This document shows, in pieces, positions 5,994 to 60,675 of a stretch of 64,000 nt of DNA (position 1 is its first letter; every line of letters starts with the position of its first letter). This DNA comes from Phycisphaerae bacterium (GTDB taxonomy: Bacteria; Planctomycetota; Phycisphaerae; SM23-33). Under the pieces are notes generated by a model, which worked only from the letters and a program-made list of their open reading frames with translations, was not told the DNA's origin and ran no database searches. A program made the position numbers and the translations under genes. The stretch is taken from contig WRDM01000001.1 of assembly GCA_009783465.1 (NCBI GenBank), positions 62,001 to 126,000 on the forward strand, written 5' to 3'.

Positions 5994-6239
5994 CAACGGA
6001 AAATCCGAAGCACGAAATACGATATATGCAACAAATTGACGGCTGTAGCGTCATCCGTGTGTGATTTCGACATTGAAGGTATATTGAGCGGCCTCCCCGG
6101 CCCGGCGTGGAGAAGCCGGGAATAAGCCGCGACCAGGGAGGCCAACTCTGCTACCTTCAATGCCTGATCCACACGCCTGTAACGTTACAGTCACAATGTG
6201 TTTCGGATTTCGGGCTTCGGATTTCGGATTTTTCCGTTG
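5994..6239. repeat. Nested composite palindrome (ATCCGA outer, GGCCTCC inner)
   Basis: The gap 5980-6280 holds concentric inverted repeats. The outer arms CAACGGAAAATCCGAAG pair with CTTCGGATTTCGGATTTTTCCGTTG. Inside lie CTGTAGCG... / ...CGTTACAG and CATTGAAGGTA / TACCTTCAATG. The centre is GGCCTCCCCGG... / ...GGGAGGCC. The core family recurs at 15077-15375 and 38385-38460, and the outer family at 7797-7975 and 42690-42725. No gene is visible. Confidence 0.75.
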
Positions 6240-7992: not shown

Positions 7993-9453
7993 ATGCGGAC
8001 GTCCATTCCAATCCGGCTTGCGTTGGTGGTCAATCTGGTGTTGGCTGCCCTTGGCGTGGCGGTGGCGTGGGTTGGGATCAGCGTGTCAGGGCAGGCGATT
8101 GAGCGGCGGCTGGTGGAGGAGGCGGTAGTTGGAGCGGCGTCGCTGGTGGGTCAGCGGGAGTTGCCGGTGACGGATTCGCTGATGCAACATTTGGAGATCA
8201 TTCTCGGTTCGCCGCTGGCGGCGGTGGAGTGGCGGGCGGCGGGGTCGGCACGGGTGACGGCGTCGTCGCTGCCGGATGCCCAGCGGAAGGAGTTGGAGGT
8301 GGCGTTGGCGGCGTCGGACGGGTTTCGCGCGGTTCGGCTTGGCGGGGCAGAGCATCGCGTCGGGCGGGCGGTGTTGAGGTCACACGAGCAGATCGGGCCT
8401 TCGTCGACGGGAGCGGCGAGGCGGAAACTGTTCCTGCTGGTGCGGGAAGATCGCATCGAAACCGCCCGGCGAGAGGTCAGCCAGACGATTGCGTTGTACA
8501 CGGTCGCGGCGACGCTGCTGGCGACGTTGATCACGCTGGGGTTGGCGATGACGGTCTCGAGGCCTTTGCGGAAATTGGCCGACCGCATCCATGGTTTGGC
8601 GGTTCAGGCGCGGGCGGGCGACGCGGATTGGCCCCCCCCTGCTTCGCTCTCCGAATTGCGCGGGGCGCGTCGCGGTCCGGCGGAGGTGATGGCCCTGGGC
8701 GAGGCCTTCGACGAACTGCTCTCCCGCCTGCACGACGCCCGGCGGCAGTTGGCGCGGTCGTCGAGGCTGGCGGCGTTGGGGCAGCTTTCGGCGTCCGTCG
8801 CCCACGAATTGCGGAACCCGCTCAGCGGCATCAAGATGAACGCCCGCGTGCTGGCCGACGAGATGGCCCGGCGAGGCATGCAGGACCAGAGCCTCGACCT
8901 CATCCTTCGCGAAATCGACCGCACGGACCGCTACCTCCAGGAACTGATGGATTTAACCAGCACGGAAACGACCGGCGACAACGAGTCCCCCGACACACCG
9001 CACGCGGACCTGGCCGCCATGGCGGAATCCGTGCTCCAGCTCCAGGGACCACGCATGAAGGCAACAGGCGTGCAGCCGGTCACGCGATTCGCCCCCCCCA
9101 CCGCGGTTCGCGCCGACGACGACCGCATCCGCCGCGTCATCCTCAACCTCGTCCTCAACGCCCTCGACGCCATGCCCAACGGCGGAACGCTCACCCTCGC
9201 CACCGACCCGCGGCCCGGCAACGCCATCCGATTCAGCGTTACTGACACCGGCGGCGGCATCCGCGTCCCCGAGGGCACGGACGTTTTCGAACCGTTCGTC
9301 ACCACCAAACCCCACGGCACAGGCCTGGGCCTCCACATCAGCCGCCGCGTCATCACCCGCTTCGGAGGCCGAATCGACTACGCCACCACCCCCGCCGGCA
9401 GCACGTTCTGGTTCGAACTGCCCGCGGAGAAGCCAATAGCCAATCGCCAGTAG
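7993..9453 (+). CDS. Membrane sensor histidine kinase
   Basis: This is a 486-residue kinase with a TM segment at about 8-27, a periplasmic sensor region, a second TM near 165-185 and a HAMP-like linker. The HisKA box VAHELRNPLSG has the phospho-acceptor His at about residue 271. A HATPase domain follows, with N box ILNLVLNALDA, DTGGGI and GTGLGL. I start it at the ATG at 7993, because the in-frame sequence upstream is translated palindrome. No response regulator lies beside it, so its partner is unknown. Its last codons (KPIANRQ, TAG) lie inside the palindrome at 9429-9503. Confidence 0.88.
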   Translation: MRTSIPIRLALVVNLVLAALGVAVAWVGISVSGQAIERRLVEEAVVGAASLVGQRELPVTDSLMQHLEIILGSPLAAVEWRAAGSARVTASSLPDAQRKELEVALAASDGFRAVRLGGAEHRVGRAVLRSHEQIGPSSTGAARRKLFLLVREDRIETARREVSQTIALYTVAATLLATLITLGLAMTVSRPLRKLADRIHGLAVQARAGDADWPPPASLSELRGARRGPAEVMALGEAFDELLSRLHDARRQLARSSRLAALGQLSASVAHELRNPLSGIKMNARVLADEMARRGMQDQSLDLILREIDRTDRYLQELMDLTSTETTGDNESPDTPHADLAAMAESVLQLQGPRMKATGVQPVTRFAPPTAVRADDDRIRRVILNLVLNALDAMPNGGTLTLATDPRPGNAIRFSVTDTGGGIRVPEGTDVFEPFVTTKPHGTGLGLHISRRVITRFGGRIDYATTPAGSTFWFELPAEKPIANRQ

Positions 9454-9503
9454 GTATGGCATATGCATGTGCCATACCTGATGGCTACTGGCTATTGGCT
9501 TTT
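9429..9503. repeat. TAGCCA-family palindrome between convergent genes
   Basis: The left arm GAAGCCAATAGCCAATCGCC, followed by AGTAGGTATGGCA, pairs with TGCCATACCTGATGGC, followed by TACTGGCTATTGGCTTTTC. The loop is about 6 nt. It supplies the stop codons of both flanking convergent genes. The same design occurs at 38279-38568. Confidence 0.85.
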
Positions 9504-9776
9504 CTTCCGACGTGCCCTGCGAAGGCGGAGCCGTGCGCGGACGCGGCGGAACCTGGCCAGCAGCCAGCGGCTGACACGATGCTCAGGCCCCAACAACAGC
9601 AGCACGCCCGGAATTACCAGAAGCCAAAACTGAAGCACCGGCAGAAAAATCCCTGGAATGCTCAACAGAATCAACGTAAGGCCGATGCCCCGCCGCAGCC
9701 ATACCGGCCAATGACGCGTCCGCCCGATAATACCGTGCTGTCGCTTTCTCACGAACCATTGTAGAAGCGTTGTCAC
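9492..9776 (-). CDS. Small two-helix membrane protein
   Basis: This 94-residue protein is very basic at both ends, with two adjacent hydrophobic stretches at about 32-62 (GIGLTLILLSIPGIFLP and FWLLVIPGVLLLLG). It resembles small PGPGW-type inner-membrane proteins of unknown function. The stop codon and final residues (RKKSQ) fall inside the palindrome shared with the convergent kinase gene. It is divergent from the URO-D-like gene at 9812 with only about 35 bp between starts. I cannot assign a function. Confidence 0.6.
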   Translation of the reverse strand: MTTLLQWFVRKRQHGIIGRTRHWPVWLRRGIGLTLILLSIPGIFLPVLQFWLLVIPGVLLLLGPEHRVSRWLLARFRRVRARLRLRRARRKKSQ

Positions 9777-13077: not shown

Positions 13078-13239
13078 AAAAAGCCACTAGCCACTAGCCA
13101 CTAGCCACAAGGTAGGTAAATCCTGCCACAAATCACACGATTCAGATCGCTCGTATTCATGTGTCCTTCCCGCTTTCACTATCTTTTTACAACCGACTCT
13201 CCATACCTTGTGGCTAGTGGCTTGTGGCTAGTGGCTTTC
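13078..13239. repeat. TAGCCA-family palindrome between phoB and phoR
   Basis: The arms are AAGCCACTAGCCACTAGCC, then ACAAGGTA, and TACCTTGTGGC, then TAGTGGCTTGTGGCTAGTGGCTT. The loop is about 95 bp. The inner pairing CCACAAGG/CCTTGTGG changes to CCACCAGG/CCTGGTGG in the copy at 24891-25072. It separates two genes expected to be co-transcribed. Confidence 0.85.
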
Positions 13240-14142: not shown

Positions 14143-14991
14143 ATGCGAAACTTGTTGCGGATGATCGGCTGGGGCGTGGCGGCGGTACTGTGTGGCGCGC
14201 TGGGCGTTTCGGCGATGGCGCAGGAGAAAACGACGCTGCAAATCGAGGGTTCCACCACGGTGGGGCCGATTGTCGATGAGTTTACCGAGGCCTTTAAAAA
14301 GTCGCCGGACTTCAAGGACGTCACGATCACCGTCAAGAAGACCGGCAGCGGCGACGGCATCGCGGCGTTGATCGACGGACGGTGCCAGATCGCCACGTCC
14401 AGCCGCTTTATGAAAATCGAAGAGTTCGAAAAGGCCGTGAAAAACGGCGTGATGCCAGTGGCCCATACCGTCGCGATGGACGGCGTGTGTGTCGTGGTGC
14501 ATCCGTCCAACCCGGTCAAGGGGCTGACCGTCGCGCAGCTCAAAGACATTTACACGGGCAAGACCACGAATTGGAAGGATCTCGGCGGGGCGGACCGGGC
14601 GATTGTTCTCATCAGCCGCGACACGTCGTCGGGCACGTATGAATCGTTCGTGGCGTTCGTGATGGGCAAGGACAAAATGTCCGACAAGGCCGAGTACGTC
14701 AACGCGAACCCGCAGGCGCACAGCCGTGTCGCGACCACCGAGGGCGCGATCGGCTACGTCGGGCTGGGATTCCTCGACAAGCAGGTCAAGGCGTTGGAAA
14801 TCGGCGGCATCATGCCCAGCCGGCGGACGATCCAGTCGGGCAAATACCCGCTCAGTCGCCCGCTGTTCCTGTTCACCAACGGCTACCCGGACCTCGGCAC
14901 GCCGATCCACGCGTTCTGCACACACTACCTGAGCGAAAAAGGCGAACGCATCATCGACGCCAAGGGGTTCATCCCGGTGACGAATTACTAA
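14143..14991 (+). CDS. pstS: Phosphate ABC transporter, periplasmic binding protein PstS
   Basis: This 282-residue protein has a signal peptide (cleavage near SAMAQ, about residue 26). It has the PstS phosphate-contact motifs GSTTVGP, TGSGDGI and SRDTSSGTYE. It captures inorganic phosphate for PstCAB. GAAGGAG precedes the ATG by about 8 nt. It is the first gene of pstSCAB-porin and is separated from pstC by a 390-bp palindrome cluster that may dampen read-through, so that the binding protein is made in excess. Confidence 0.93.
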   Translation: MRNLLRMIGWGVAAVLCGALGVSAMAQEKTTLQIEGSTTVGPIVDEFTEAFKKSPDFKDVTITVKKTGSGDGIAALIDGRCQIATSSRFMKIEEFEKAVKNGVMPVAHTVAMDGVCVVVHPSNPVKGLTVAQLKDIYTGKTTNWKDLGGADRAIVLISRDTSSGTYESFVAFVMGKDKMSDKAEYVNANPQAHSRVATTEGAIGYVGLGFLDKQVKALEIGGIMPSRRTIQSGKYPLSRPLFLFTNGYPDLGTPIHAFCTHYLSEKGERIIDAKGFIPVTNY

Positions 14992-15076
14992 CGCAGAGAG
15001 GGACAAGCGACCAGCGACAAGTGACAAGTGAAGGAAAATTGAGACTGTGCATGGTTGGTGTGGAAAACAATAGATT

Positions 15077-15375
15077 GGCCTCCCCGGACTCGCGCGGGGG
15101 TGCCGGGAATAAGCCGCGGAGCGGCGTCGTTTATAGCCCAGGGCGAGCCGTACTCGGCGAGCCCTGGGTTCGCGACTCTTTCATGGCCAAGCCCCATAGG
15201 GGCGTCTTATTGTGCCTTGCACGCCGACGGTCATCGTACGGTAAGACGCCCCTACGGGGCTTGAATGTTATAAAGAAACTTTCCCCAGGGCTCGCGGAGT
15301 ACCGCTCGCCCTGGGCTATAGACGACGCCGCTCCGCGGCTGTGGTCCGGCACTCCCACGCGCGACCGGGGAGGCC
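15077..15375. repeat. Triple-nested palindrome between pstS and pstC
   Basis: This 299-bp structure has concentric arms from three unrelated units. The outermost is GGCCTCCCCGG (15077-15087) with CCGGGGAGGCC (15365-15375). The middle is ATAGCCCAGGGCGAGC with GCTCGCCCTGGGCTAT. The innermost is AAGCCCCATAGGGGCGTCTT with AAGACGCCCCTACGGGGCTT. The arm GCCGCGGAGCGGCGTCGT also pairs with its partner before pstC. It fills the gap 14992-15382, where no gene is visible. Confidence 0.85.
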
Positions 15376-15382
15376 GCTCCAC

Positions 15383-16357
15383 ATGAGTACGGCAACACAG
15401 TCCGAAACGAAAATCGAATCACCGATGCTGGAGCGGCCACTGTTGTTGACGGCCTCTCAAAACCGTAGCGGCTGGCTGTTGAGTCACGCCGGACGGACGT
15501 TGTTCATGCTCGTCACGGCCGTGTCGGTCGTGGCGGTGGCGTTGATTTTCGTGTTCATCGTTCGCGAAGCCTGGCCGTTCTTCGCGTCGCGCGGGGTGGC
15601 CGAACCCTTGGGCTCCACCGCGTGGGAGCCACAGCCGCACGGGGGCAACGCCGATCAGTTCGGCATGGTCGCGATGATTTTCGGCTCGCTCTACGTGACG
15701 GCCGGCGCGATGATCCTGGCCGTGCCGGTGGGCATCCTGGCCGCCGTCGTCCTCAGCGACATCGTGCCCTTCCGCGTCCGCCAGGCCGTCAAACCCGTCG
15801 TCGAAATCCTCGCGGCCATTCCGTCGGTCGCGTACGGATTCTTCGCCGTCCTCATCCTCGCCCCGCTCATGCAGACTCACCTGGGACTGTCCAGCGGAAC
15901 CAACGCATTCAACTCCATGCTCATGCTGGCGGTCATGGCCATTCCGACCATCGTCAGCGTGGCCGAGGATTCACTCTCTGCCGTGGGGCGCGAACTTCGC
16001 GAAGCCTCCTACGCCTGCGGGGCCACGCGGGCCGAGACGCTGTGGAAGGTCGTCATTCCCGCCGCCCACAACGGCATCATCGCCGCGGTGGTGCTGGGCG
16101 TCATGCGGGCCGTCGGAGAGACAATGCTGGTCTGGATGGCCTCGGGCAACGCCAACCGCATCCCAGGCCCGTGGTGGAACATCACCGAGTCGGTCCGCAC
16201 CATGACGGCCACCATCGCCGGCGAAATGGGCGAAGCCGCCGTCGGCTCCATGCACCGCCACGCCCTGTTCGCGGTCGGCTTGATCCTGCTGCTGTTCTCG
16301 CTGGGATTGAATCTGATGACGGAATGGCTGTTGTCGAGATCAAGGAGGAAGGCGTGA
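15383..16357 (+). CDS. pstC: Phosphate ABC transporter permease PstC
   Basis: This 324-residue permease has about six TM helices, the first at about 35-60 (TLFMLVTAVSVVAVALIFVF). The binding-protein-dependent permease domain contains the EAA-type loop ELREASYACGATRAETLW. I place the start at 15383 (MSTATQSE), since in-frame sequence further upstream is palindrome. It pairs with PstA to form the inner-membrane phosphate channel. Confidence 0.92.
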   Translation: MSTATQSETKIESPMLERPLLLTASQNRSGWLLSHAGRTLFMLVTAVSVVAVALIFVFIVREAWPFFASRGVAEPLGSTAWEPQPHGGNADQFGMVAMIFGSLYVTAGAMILAVPVGILAAVVLSDIVPFRVRQAVKPVVEILAAIPSVAYGFFAVLILAPLMQTHLGLSSGTNAFNSMLMLAVMAIPTIVSVAEDSLSAVGRELREASYACGATRAETLWKVVIPAAHNGIIAAVVLGVMRAVGETMLVWMASGNANRIPGPWWNITESVRTMTATIAGEMGEAAVGSMHRHALFAVGLILLLFSLGLNLMTEWLLSRSRRKA

Positions 16358-19023: not shown

Positions 19024-19113
19024 ATGTTTTTACAGCCCCTGGCCGTTTGCGTTGCAGGACGAGTCCGGCGCCGGGCTCGTTCTACAGCGCAAACGGCCAG
19101 GGGCTGTAAACAT
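19024..19113. repeat. TTTGCG-family palindrome between pstB and porin gene
   Basis: The arms are ATGTTTTTACAGCCCCTGGC, then CGTTTGCGTTG, and CAGCGCAAACGGCC, then AGGGGCTGTAAACAT. The inner loop folds again (GACGAGTCCGGCGCCGGGCTCGT). Confidence 0.85.
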
Positions 19114-20640: not shown

Positions 20641-20684
20641 GCATCGGACACAACCGATACGTAGAAAAGAATGGGGATAGATAG

Positions 20685-20770
20685 GGCTCTGCCGGTTTGC
20701 GTTGTTGAACGTTGTGAACAAAAGAACGTGCTGTAGTTCACAACGCCCCGCAACGCAAACCGGCAGAGCC
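20685..20770. repeat. TTTGCG-family palindrome
   Basis: The stem GGCTCTGCCGGTTTGCGTTG pairs with CAACGCAAACCGGCAGAGCC, with a loop of about 46 bp. It lies between the convergent porin and URO-D-like genes (gap 20641-20849). Confidence 0.85.
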
Positions 20771-20849
20771 ATATTTGCATCAATTCCGTAATCCCTGAAT
20801 CCCCGCTAAAAAGAAATTCGCGGGAATTCGCGGTATTCGCGGCGGTTTT

Positions 20850-22968: not shown

Positions 22969-23011
22969 GCGCAAACACATGTGTGTCCCCATTTTTCGCA
23001 CGAGGTTCCGG

Positions 23012-23135
23012 TTCAGCGCGCCTGGCCGCAGGCCCTGCCAGTTTGCGTTGTAAGACGTTATGGGCGACAAAGCGTTTTGTTTGTCACAACGATTTACAAC
23101 GCAAACTGGCAGGGCCTGCGGCCAGGCGCGCTGAA
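23012..23135. repeat. TTTGCG-family palindrome, long arms
   Basis: The arms of about 42 bp are perfect: TTCAGCGCGCCTGGCCGCAG, then GCCCTGCCAGTTTGCGTTG, then TAA, against the exact complement ending GGCCAGGCGCGCTGAA. It lies in the gap 22969-23217, which has no gene. Confidence 0.9.
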
Positions 23136-23217
23136 TACGAAGGTCACACGCAGAACCGGAAAACGTACACGCGTTCATTCTGGACGATTGGCTTGTTGCC
23201 CTCGTTGCGGTCGGTGC

Positions 23218-24839: not shown

Positions 24840-24890
24840 GGTCTCTCCTTTCTGAGAGGTTGTACGTTATGGGAGAATGTAGCTTATACC

Positions 24891-25072
24891 AGCCACTAGC
24901 CACAAGCCACTAACCACCAGGTATGGCGAAACTTGTCCTGATTCAGACCTCATTGTTCTGTTCACCGAACGTCGAGTCTGCGAAGCCACAAGACCACTCT
25001 CTCGAACGTCTGGAACGCTTTTACCGAAACACACCGCAAACCCTGGTGGCTAATGGCTTGTGGCTAGTGGCT
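24891..25072. repeat. TAGCCA-family palindrome
   Basis: The arms are AGCCACTAGCCACAAGCC, then ACTAACCACCAGG, and CCTGGTGGCTAATGGC, then TTGTGGCTAGTGGCT. The loop is about 125 bp. The inner pair CCACCAGG/CCTGGTGG is a compensated variant of the copy at 13078. Confidence 0.85.
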
Positions 25073-25076
25073 GCCG

Positions 25077-29998: not shown

Positions 29999-30130
29999 GT
30001 ATTCAGGCGCGACCGGCCACAGGCCCTGCCAGTTTGCGTTGTGAGACGGTGTGAGCGACGGAACGCTTCGCCTGTCACAACGACCTACAACGCAAACTGG
30101 CGGGGCCTGTGGCCGGTCGCGCCTGAATAC
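29999..30130. repeat. TTTGCG-family palindrome, long arms
   Basis: The arms GTATTCAGGCGCGACCGGCC, then ACAGGCCCTGCCAGTTTGCG, are followed by a loop and the complement ending GGCCGGTCGCGCCTGAATAC. The flanking part of the arm is unlike other copies yet complementary. The rest of the gap 29913-30337 shows only a possible -10 (TACAAT near 30217) for transketolase. Confidence 0.9.
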
Positions 30131-32281: not shown

Positions 32282-32316
32282 CGTATAGCGACGTTTCGCC
32301 GTCAGGAACGCTTCGC

Positions 32317-32380
32317 AACGCAAACTGGCAGGGCCTGTGAAAACGTGAGAATGTTTTCACAGGCCCTGCCAGTTTGCGTT
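32317..32380. repeat. TTTGCG-family hairpin, tail-to-head, before RAYT gene
   Basis: AACGCAAACTGGCAGGGCCT, then GTGAAAAC, folds on an 8-base loop to GTTTTCACAGGCCCTGCC, then AGTTTGCGTT. The right half doubles as the left end of the transposase-bearing unit at 32353-33090. Confidence 0.85.
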
Positions 32381-33090
32381 GTAAATCATTATAGTACGAA
32401 GCATCTTGACTCTCGTAGAAAAGGACCTGACCACATGATCCTCGCGACGCATGTCATCCTGACCGGGTATGGCCATTGGCTGCCCAACGACGTGCGGGGA
32501 AGTTATTCAGAAACCGTTTTTATCCCCCCGATCGCCGAACTCGGACCGCTCCATCATGGGCGAAAACCCGTTCAGCCATCCACGCCAGAACTGCGAAAAT
32601 TCCACAATCAGGCCCAAGCGGTGCTGACCCACTCCGTCCATTGGTTTTCGACCGAAGAGCGGAACGCAATCCGCGACGCATTCGCCCGGCTGTGTCAGGA
32701 ACGACGGTTCGTCTGTTACGCTGGTGCCATTCTATCAAACCATATTCATGTCCTGATTGAACGAAACTACCTGCCCCCACCGACAATCCATGACCTGCTT
32801 AAGCAATACGCAACCCAGGCTGTCCGAGCGTTTGGCTTCGTGCCTGTGAAACACCCCGTGTTCAACGCTGGCATCGCAACCGTGTATAAATACACCCCCG
32901 CGGAAATACGTCAATGCGCGAAATACATTACGGACAATTTCGCGAAACACAAATTCCCGACAGAACGCTACGAATTCGTCAGTGATTACAAGGAAAAATG
33001 GATGCAGCGGCGAATAACCTACGAATGAACCGTAGGCCGCTTCGTTGTCTGGAGTGTTCGACAACGCAAACGGGCAGGGCCTGTGAACAC
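32353..33090 (+). mobile_element. REP-type autonomous unit: RAYT gene between palindromic arms
   Basis: The left arm (32353-32382, GTTTTCACAGGCCCTGCC, then AGTTTGCGTTGT) and right arm (33061-33090, ACAACGCAAACGGGCAGG, then GCCTGTGAACAC) are inverted repeats with 2-3 mismatches. They carry the same core as about ten gene-less palindromes in the window. Next to the arms, TACGAAGC and GCTTCGT also pair. The transposase gene sits where the other copies have a short loop. Confidence 0.8.
32435..33028 (+). CDS. REP-associated tyrosine transposase (RAYT, Y1/HUH family)
   Basis: This 197-residue protein has the HUH motif HIH at residues 103-105 (ILSNHIHVLIERN). A downstream helix carries a candidate catalytic tyrosine (Tyr164, QCAKYITDNF). 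The N-terminus HVILTGYGHWLPNDVRG resembles Y1_Tnp transposases of the RAYT group. Such single-copy enzymes nick single-stranded REP hairpins, and they are thought to have spread REP sequences. The start at 32435 excludes palindrome-derived codons. It sits between arms of the hairpin family scattered through this window. Confidence 0.8.
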   Translation: MILATHVILTGYGHWLPNDVRGSYSETVFIPPIAELGPLHHGRKPVQPSTPELRKFHNQAQAVLTHSVHWFSTEERNAIRDAFARLCQERRFVCYAGAILSNHIHVLIERNYLPPPTIHDLLKQYATQAVRAFGFVPVKHPVFNAGIATVYKYTPAEIRQCAKYITDNFAKHKFPTERYEFVSDYKEKWMQRRITYE

Positions 33091-38278: not shown

Positions 38279-38568
38279 TCAGAACGGAAAGCCAGTAGCC
38301 AATAGCCGATAGCCAGTAGGTATGGAAAGTTGGTCGCGAATCGAAACATCCACATGGTTATTGTTGATATGGTAACGAATGATTCAGCCTCCCCGGTCTC
38401 GTGTTGGATCGCTGGCACATAGCCGGTTTTTCCACGCGGGGCTTGGGAGGCCAATCGGTTGTTTTCAACGGAAAACCAAGTACTCTCGCAACAAACATTC
38501 ATCGCGAAAAATGTGTTCCACGTGCCACAATTTTCCATACCTACTGGCTACTGGCTATTGGTTTTCTG
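38279..38568. repeat. TAGCCA palindrome with GGCCTCC palindrome nested in its loop
   Basis: The outer arms CAGAACGGAAAGCCAGTAGC, then CAATAGCC and GGTATGGAAA, pair with TTTTCCATACC, then TACTGGCTACTGGC and TATTGGTTTTCTG. Inside, CCTCCCCGGTCTCGTG pairs with CACGCGGGGCTTGGGAGG. It fills the gap 38260-38554 and overlaps the 3' end of the metallophosphatase gene, providing its TAG stop. Confidence 0.8.
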
Positions 38569-45197: not shown

Positions 45198-45248
45198 CGA
45201 AATCGCCCGACGCGGAGAAAGCGTTGGGGAGTCGAAAAATCTTCTGCG

Positions 45249-45338
45249 ATGGCTCCGCCTGTTTGCGTTGTAGGACGGTGTGGACTACAAAACGTTTTGC
45301 ATTGCACAACGTTCTACAACGCAAACAGGCGGAGCCAT
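45249..45338. repeat. TTTGCG-family palindrome
   Basis: ATGGCTCCGCCTGTTTGCGT, then TGTAGGACG, pairs with CGTTCTACAACGCAAAC, then AGGCGGAGCCAT. The core is shared but the outer arm GGCTCCGCC is unique to this copy. Confidence 0.85.
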
Positions 45339-45357
45339 AGCCGCATCGTAAATCGCT

Positions 45358-46593: not shown

Positions 46594-46711
46594 GCGACAA
46601 GACTGTTAGGCTATTAGGCTGTTAGACTGTTAGACGCAGGCTTATGTATATTTTGGCCTAATGATGTATAAGCCTGCGTCTAACAGCCTAATAGCCTAAC
46701 AGTCTTGTCAC
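46594..46711. repeat. TGTTAG-family palindrome
   Basis: CGACAAGACTGTTAGGC, then TATTAGGCTGTTAGACTG, pairs with CTAACAGCC, then TAATAGCCTAACAGTCTTGTC. The inner segment GACGCAGGCTTATG pairs with CATAAGCCTGCGTC-like sequence. The TPR gene stop lies in its right end. Confidence 0.8.
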
Positions 46712-49627: not shown

Positions 49628-49742
49628 AGACTGTTAGACTATTAGGCTATTAGACTGCTAGGCGCAGGCTAATGAAGCCCTTGGCCTAATGATTCATAAG
49701 CCTCTCCCTAACAGTCTAACAGCCTAATAGTCTAACAGTCTA
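49628..49742. repeat. TGTTAG-family palindrome between zwf and pgl
   Basis: AGACTGTTAGACTATTAGGC, then TATTAGAC, pairs with CTAACAGCCTAATAG, then TCTAACAGTCT. The pgl ribosome site AGGAGG lies immediately after the right arm. Confidence 0.8.
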
Positions 49743-58772: not shown

Positions 58773-58783
58773 TCGAAATGACG

Positions 58784-58884
58784 TGGATGTGGCTTGCCGG
58801 TTTGCGCTGCAAAACGCTCCTGACGACAAGACTACGTTTTGTCGTCAGGAGCGTTTTGCAGCGCAAACCGGCAAGCCACATCCA
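58784..58884. repeat. TTTGCG-family palindrome with perfect 46-bp stem
   Basis: TGGATGTGGCTTGCCGGTTT, then GCGCTGCAAAACGC and TCCTGACGACAA, is followed by a 9-base loop and the exact complement. It sits between the convergent PEP-CTERM and ffh genes. It is the longest uninterrupted stem in the window. Confidence 0.92.
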
Positions 58885-58900
58885 TGTCAACCGTTTGTCG

Positions 58901-60539: not shown

Positions 60540-60675
60540 TCCTGTTCCGGCGCCACTGGCCGCAGGCCCTGCCAGTTTGCGTTGCGAAACGTTGTGAGCG
60601 ACGGAACGCTTCGCTTGCCACAATGATCTACAACGCAAACTGGCAGGGCCTGTGGCCAGTGGCGCCGAAACAGGA
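60540..60675. repeat. TTTGCG-family palindrome, long arms
   Basis: TCCTGTTCCGGCGCCACTGG, then CCGCAGGCCCTGCC and AGTTTGCGTTG, pairs with CAACGCAAACTGGC, then AGGGCCTGTGGCC and AGTGGCGCCGAAACAGGA. The loop core (GTTGTGAGCGACGGAACGCT) nearly matches that at 30040-30065. Confidence 0.9.

Follow-up and report, generated by a model that had tools for sequence, protein, structure and literature searches.

A nested hairpin between pstS and pstC in a Phycisphaerae bacterium, read as a putative transposase-less derivative of a Y1 transposon

The 64,000-nt stretch of Phycisphaerae DNA analysed here (the window) carries a giant nested hairpin between pstS and pstC, which is probably explained as a miniature of a Y1 transposon that gained an extra palindrome, A, and was inserted at pst, while other A-bearing copies came to lie in further palindromic shells, E. 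The full element has the order B-C-D-transposase-D'-C'-B'; each end carries three hairpins, mirrored between the ends, of which C resembles a REP and has a (G)TAG foot. The source would be a single-strand (Y1/HUH, IS200-like) transposon, the transposase gene of which would have shrunk to a 32-nt loop in the pst copy. We infer that the transposase acts catalytically on the B/C/D hairpins, which it would recognise on single-stranded DNA, and that it would mobilise deleted copies in trans. The unit would have gained the outer palindrome A in this lineage. Elements bearing A would then have entered palindromes of other families, the E shells, at the dyad centre (hairpin tip), or the shells would have been exchanged otherwise; either route would lead to a Russian-doll structure. 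At pst, the right edge of the element, inserted between the two genes, would supply the Shine-Dalgarno sequence of pstC, and the predicted hairpin would sequester it.

Architecture of the hairpin

An inverted-repeat search returned one giant hairpin at window positions 15077-15375, composed of 92-nt outer arms (I1, 15077-15168 and 15284-15375; 87% complementary) and, inside these, 22-nt inner arms (I2, 15188-15209 and 15242-15263; 95%). The corresponding 401-nt RNA was predicted to fold into a single hairpin of -274.7 kcal/mol, compared to -159.7 +/- 6.3 kcal/mol for dinucleotide shuffles (z = -18.25), and none of 100 shuffles matched this energy. The arms of about 100 bp with all layers paired, which an initial annotation of this DNA had described, were thereby borne out. 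The same annotation had counted three concentric palindromes between pstS and pstC; the nesting was confirmed, but the number of layers is four, A (15080-15099), B (15112-15126), C (15135-15148) and D (15189-15209), each with a mirrored partner (Table 1), B (AGCCGCGGAGCGGCG) having been overlooked. B, C and D are individually palindromic, which makes either arm a row of small hairpins as well. The foot of C reads ATAG in the pst copy, and the right counterpart of the end sequence GTGTGGAAAACAATAGATTG is shortened.

Table 1. Features of the pst site and free palindromes of one family (positions in the window).
Feature	Position	Strand	Basis or remark
pstS, upstream neighbour	14143..14991	+	orthologues at 56-74% identity in relatives
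Left end sequence of the A element (GTGTGGAAAACAATAGATTG)	15057..15076	+	fits GTGGAAAACAACCGATTGG consensus outside A in other copies
Layer A, left arm (GGCCTCCCCGG...GTGCCGG)	15077..15106	+	inverted repeat; genome-wide pattern
Layer B, left (AGCCGCGGAGCGGCG, self-palindromic)	15112..15126	+	AGCCCCAACGGGGCGTCT stands instead in most copies
Layer C, left, TAG-footed REP-like hairpin (AGCCCAGGGCGAGCCGTACTCGGCGAGCCCTGGGTT)	15134..15170	+	sequence; genome-wide pattern
Layer D, left (CAAGCCCCATAGGGGCGTCTTA)	15188..15209	+	inverted repeat
D-D' loop, 32 nt	15210..15241	.	equivalent interval in L093 (G000:C23) ~600 bp, with Y1 transposase gene
Layer D', right	15242..15263	+	inverted repeat
Layer C', right, ending GCCCTGGGCTA (mirrored TAG foot)	15282..15318	+	sequence
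Layer B', right	15326..15340	+	sequence
Layer A', right	15346..15375	+	contains GGGGAGG 15367-15373
pstC, downstream neighbour	15383..16357	+	start codon at hairpin foot
Free palindromes of the GTTTGCGTTGTAGGACG family	19029-19110, 20681-20774, 22983-23164, 29999-30130, 32307-32390, 45246-45341, 58779-58889, 60540-60675

The inner layers as transposon ends

The element L093 (G000:C23) has the order b-C-D-[~560 bp]-D'-C'-b', and its insert encodes a 176-aa Y1 transposase (Pfam Y1_Tnp, 1.3e-24, 87 bits; NCBIfam transpos_IS200, 76.6 bits at a cut-off of 55), which is related to solved IS608-type transposases. By its motifs DHIH (HUH) and YIRGQQMHH (Y---Q--HH) the protein is assigned to TnpA_Y1 subclass 1.2; D/NH[IV]H and Y---Q--HH motifs are present in most of the 45 homologues. 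The genome holding the window (2.48 Mb, 70 contigs, 70% complete) yielded just one copy of an intact subclass-1.2 transposase, located inside an element without A; both points count against the explanation as a whole.

Homologues of the transposase were found in Planctomycetota, Verrucomicrobia, Acidobacteria and Hydrogenedentota, and in 26 of the 35 genomes of the window's own family (this genome itself counted). Most of the homologue loci have, by eye, a layout like that of L093, with B-C-D around the transposase in at least four phyla. The mirrored arms at these loci are mostly 50-145 nt long; flanking inverted arms exceeded the 99th percentile of shuffled sequences at 36 of 40 homologous loci from several phyla, and the 99th percentile of arms swapped between loci at 26 of 40. 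Where TAG-footed hairpins stood on both sides of a locus, the end hairpins matched their own partner in 23 of 24 cases, compared to a mean of 2.8 (maximum 7) after swapping. In a search which did not require this foot, TAG preceded 44 of the 63 best flanking hairpins in relatives.

Furthermore, miniature B-C-D-D'-C'-B' units, ~210-240 bp long and devoid of A, were recovered from further genera of the family and from another family belonging to the class, and a search of Adhaeretor mobilis for miniatures returned nothing beyond the transposon's own two C hairpins. Since the order of B, C and D is constant within this genome, in other genera, in another family and around the transposase gene, their arrangement identifies them as one unit rather than three successive insertions. 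The pst copy has the B-C-D ends in common with L093 and the transposase ORF is absent from it; as is characteristic of a MITE, ends are shared with an autonomous element in a copy with no transposase. We read the pst copy, on this sequence evidence, as a non-autonomous, REPIN/MITE-like derivative of the Y1 transposon. A second, weaker Y1_Tnp match (40 bits) was observed at G000:C1:1556-1828 (L134), inside a 942-aa open frame.

The element family in the genome

The pst element gave 105 BLAST matches in its own 2.48-Mb genome, where, itself included, the related elements number roughly 80 or more. Genome-wide pattern searches located layer A at 69 + 67 sites with at most 2 mismatches (control 0/1), 173 half-sites of the C module (91 + 82; control 1/0) and 75 + 68 sites of the D/b-type pattern (control 3/11). 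In a module map built from loci fetched around the A, C and D/b sites, two types of core lie between C and C': type I (D-loop-D'), which the pst copy shares with about eleven more elements, and type II, a different palindrome (CGTGCCTGACGCCACTGGCC...), found in the majority of copies, most of which carry b (AGCCCCAACGGGGCGTCT) in place of B. A stands on both sides, at a spacing of 250-560 bp, in 60 elements. The foot of the C module is GTAG in 111 of 143 cases in this genome and mostly ATAG or TTAG in the remainder. At L104 (816-3966, G000:C29), A-b-C on one side is separated by ~3 kb from D'-C'-B'-A', with a coding start between the halves that is kdpD-like by eye; this locus is possibly an element with gene cargo or a pair of half elements.

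Outer layers and hairpin tips

Layer A and several of the outer palindromes are separable from the inner unit, as judged from their distribution. A is absent on both sides of eleven elements, namely L034, L042, L077, L102, L108 and L093 (with the transposase) and, among those of type II, L043, L049, L075, L078 and L097; it is present on one side only in three others (L052, L060, L080). No match to A was obtained in 59 other relatives searched with the pst element, and BLAST with A against 298 genomes of the class gave just 26-31-nt central matches in three other genomes. Whether the layers always occur together, as the initial annotation had asked, thus has a divided answer: C (AGCCCAGGGCGAGC) and D (AAGCCCC..GGGGCGTCTT) recur jointly with B, while A (GGCCTCCCCGG...GTGCCGG) is separable.

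Beyond A, the left and right flanks matched each other above the 95th percentile of cross pairs in 22 of 67 A-elements (3.4 expected) and above the 99th percentile in 12 of 67 (0.7 expected). Several flank families were recognised (GTGCACGTCACG..., GGTGTGGTTGAATTTTCC..., ATCCGAAACACGAAATCC..., GTTTGCGTTGTAGGACG...), some of which recur as free palindromes. One empty palindrome with a clear filled counterpart was found, and no more: at L182 the palindrome GGGTGTGGTTGG... (E2) has just GT at its centre (GGTTTTCC-GT-GGAAAACC), and at L071, L114 and L120 E2 is broken at the dyad centre by an A-element starting GTGGAAAACAACCG. The exact joint is ambiguous, the A-element's own ends resembling the palindrome tip, and no target duplication was resolved. 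This pair fits the prediction of insertion at a hairpin tip and a precise loss would look identical; we infer that insertion is the likelier direction. A-less units are not obviously located in palindrome loops, a point against our explanation, and their left flanks are pyrimidine-rich before AGCCCC. Nesting by hairpin-tip insertion is supported for the outer shells only. Repeated insertion into loops, which had been suggested for all layers, is the best reading for layer A and the shells (A-less units, varied outer palindromes, the empty E2) and fails for B, C and D as one unit.

Left and right arms from the same element resemble each other more closely than arms paired at random do, in A, in B+C and in the adjoining 50 nt outside (this likeness was reached by 0 of 2000 permutations in each case and by 1781 of 2000 for a distal control). 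Because the likeness does not persist at a distance, the arms are either homogenised or young. The likeness of same-element arms could also reflect templated correction if the shells had grown outwards through template switching or inverted duplication at a replicating hairpin, without insertion, an explanation that we consider unlikely. Elements with different E shells on the left and right (L076, L041) favour this alternative and are not predicted by simple loop insertion, which tells against our own explanation. However, the same shells recur at loci unrelated to each other, and they exist as free palindromes around other contents too; since local duplication would give locus-specific arms, this recurrence argues against inverted duplication.

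Free palindromes of the GTTTGCGTTGTAGGACG family in the window (Table 1) have short variable tips, and their arms recur around A-elements at other places in the genome. Palindromes of repeated GCCACTAGCCACAAGGTATGG units were observed at window positions 9427-9504, 13080-13238, 24890-25073 and 38299-38561, the last enclosing a reduced A-element, and another family, with GACTGTTAGGCTATTAG repeats, at 46596-46709 and 49628-49741. L184 (200-464, G000:C10) has 120-nt arms, in which GCCACTAGCCAC and ATCCGAAACACGAAATCC shells are combined around a different core.

Copies with fewer layers

Copies with fewer layers had been proposed as a guide to the order of insertion. Several of them in this genome are, by their content, deletion remnants rather than early stages: L050, L038 and the window copies at 6090 and 38389 retain pieces of the missing layers (b or C). 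Consequently, layer counts give no direct insertion order and this approach was rejected. L063, the sole clean A-only palindrome found, can be explained by recombination between GCCGG repeats.

The fragments retained in these four copies, which point to deletion, also bear on the view that every layer stems from repeated independent insertions of separate palindromes into each other's loops. The separable outer shells, the empty E2 dyad and other nests such as L190 (135-383, G000:C18), where a GTTTGCGTTG palindrome lies within the loop of a GTGCACGTCACG palindrome in a nest without an A-element, agree with it. But from genus to genus, family to family and phylum to phylum, and around the transposase too, B, C and D keep their order and mirror pairing, which makes this view quite improbable; for B, C and D, as a conserved unit, the full model was rejected.

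Comparison with known systems

IS200/IS605 insertion sequences carry subterminal hairpins at their ends and no terminal inverted repeats. The elements described here likewise have a Y1 HUH transposase, whereas their ends are mirrored arms, so that the lack of inverted repeats does not apply to them. PATEs of Haloquadratum are miniature, transposase-less palindrome elements tied to IS200/IS605-type elements; likened by description only, they resemble the pst-type elements as miniatures and belong to a different domain of life.

TnpA_Y1 subclass 1.2 is characterised by DH[IV]H and Y---Q--HH motifs, a conserved C-terminal tail and low gene copy number, is found mostly in Cyanobacteria and Bacteroidetes, and is generally without terminal secondary structures and IS properties (Quentin et al. 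2018, PMC6006769). The two motifs, the conserved tail and the low copy number recur here; in contrast to the described members, the present transposases come from other phyla and have three-hairpin mirrored ends, with a large miniature family in this genome. In REPINs/REPtrons, a RAYT occurs with GTAG-tagged REP pairs (PMC3116915, PMC2817692, PMC3733652). Both systems have one Y1 transposase gene flanked by (G)TAG-footed hairpins in inverted pairs, along with many dispersed short copies, and the GTAG/GTGG foot is present here as well. However, the transposase is IS200-like and not of the RAYT class (NCBIfam RAYT model NF047646, 29 bits against a cut-off of 80), C is accompanied by B and D hairpins, and the elements measure about 210-390 bp.

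TIRtrons have a Y1 transposase between long, partly self-palindromic inverted repeats, some of which combine a degenerate REP with an unrelated stem-loop (PMC3733652). The same flanking arrangement is seen here, but TIRYTs have been placed in subclasses 2.1, 2.2 and 2.5 (Quentin et al., PMC6006769) and multi-shell nesting is not described for TIRtrons in PMC3733652. REP dimers inside long palindromes and IS elements targeting REPs are known (PMC3733652, PMC1525189) and resemble the present case in having palindromic elements within other palindromes and palindromes as insertion targets. For neither A. variabilis nor H. neapolitanus was a target palindrome free of an insert found (PMC3733652), whereas here one empty E2 palindrome was found and several shell types are combined.

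Taken together, the elements could represent an undescribed REPIN-like system, in which subclass-1.2 Y1 transposases outside Cyanobacteria and Bacteroidetes have mirrored three-hairpin ends and miniatures of this lineage nest by insertion at the dyad centres of other palindromes, the multi-shell hairpins making up ~1% of the genome; this reading has nearly as much for it as against it. The poorly understood subclass 1.2 would gain a likely DNA partner, and IS200-like elements would be linked to REPIN-like miniatures in phyla without an earlier report. The empty/filled E2 pair offers a direct test system for preferential insertion into hairpin tips.

The pst site

The pstC start codon, ATG at 15383, agrees with the start position in relatives. 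The gap between pstS and pstC measures 395 bp here compared to 13-163 bp, with the element absent, in 13 relatives, and these short gaps indicate that the element at pst is an insertion. The nearest strong Shine-Dalgarno candidate for pstC, GGGGAGG, lies in layer A', 9 nt before the ATG, and the predicted RNA stem pairs it and touches the start codon. It is very unlikely that the hairpin is instead a structured RNA or an attenuator under selection for adjusting the expression of pstS relative to pstC: the very stable predicted hairpin pairing the Shine-Dalgarno sequence would fit, but roughly 80 or more copies lie at unrelated places, the element is missing from the same gap in the 13 relatives, and an Rfam search of the window matched tRNAs only, for which reason a known RNA family was rejected as well.

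As a transposon-derived insertion, the element may still have a secondary effect on pst, and the predicted pairing suggests an effect of the hairpin on pstC. A large hairpin is located within a phosphate-uptake operon and bears the candidate ribosome-binding site of the next gene.
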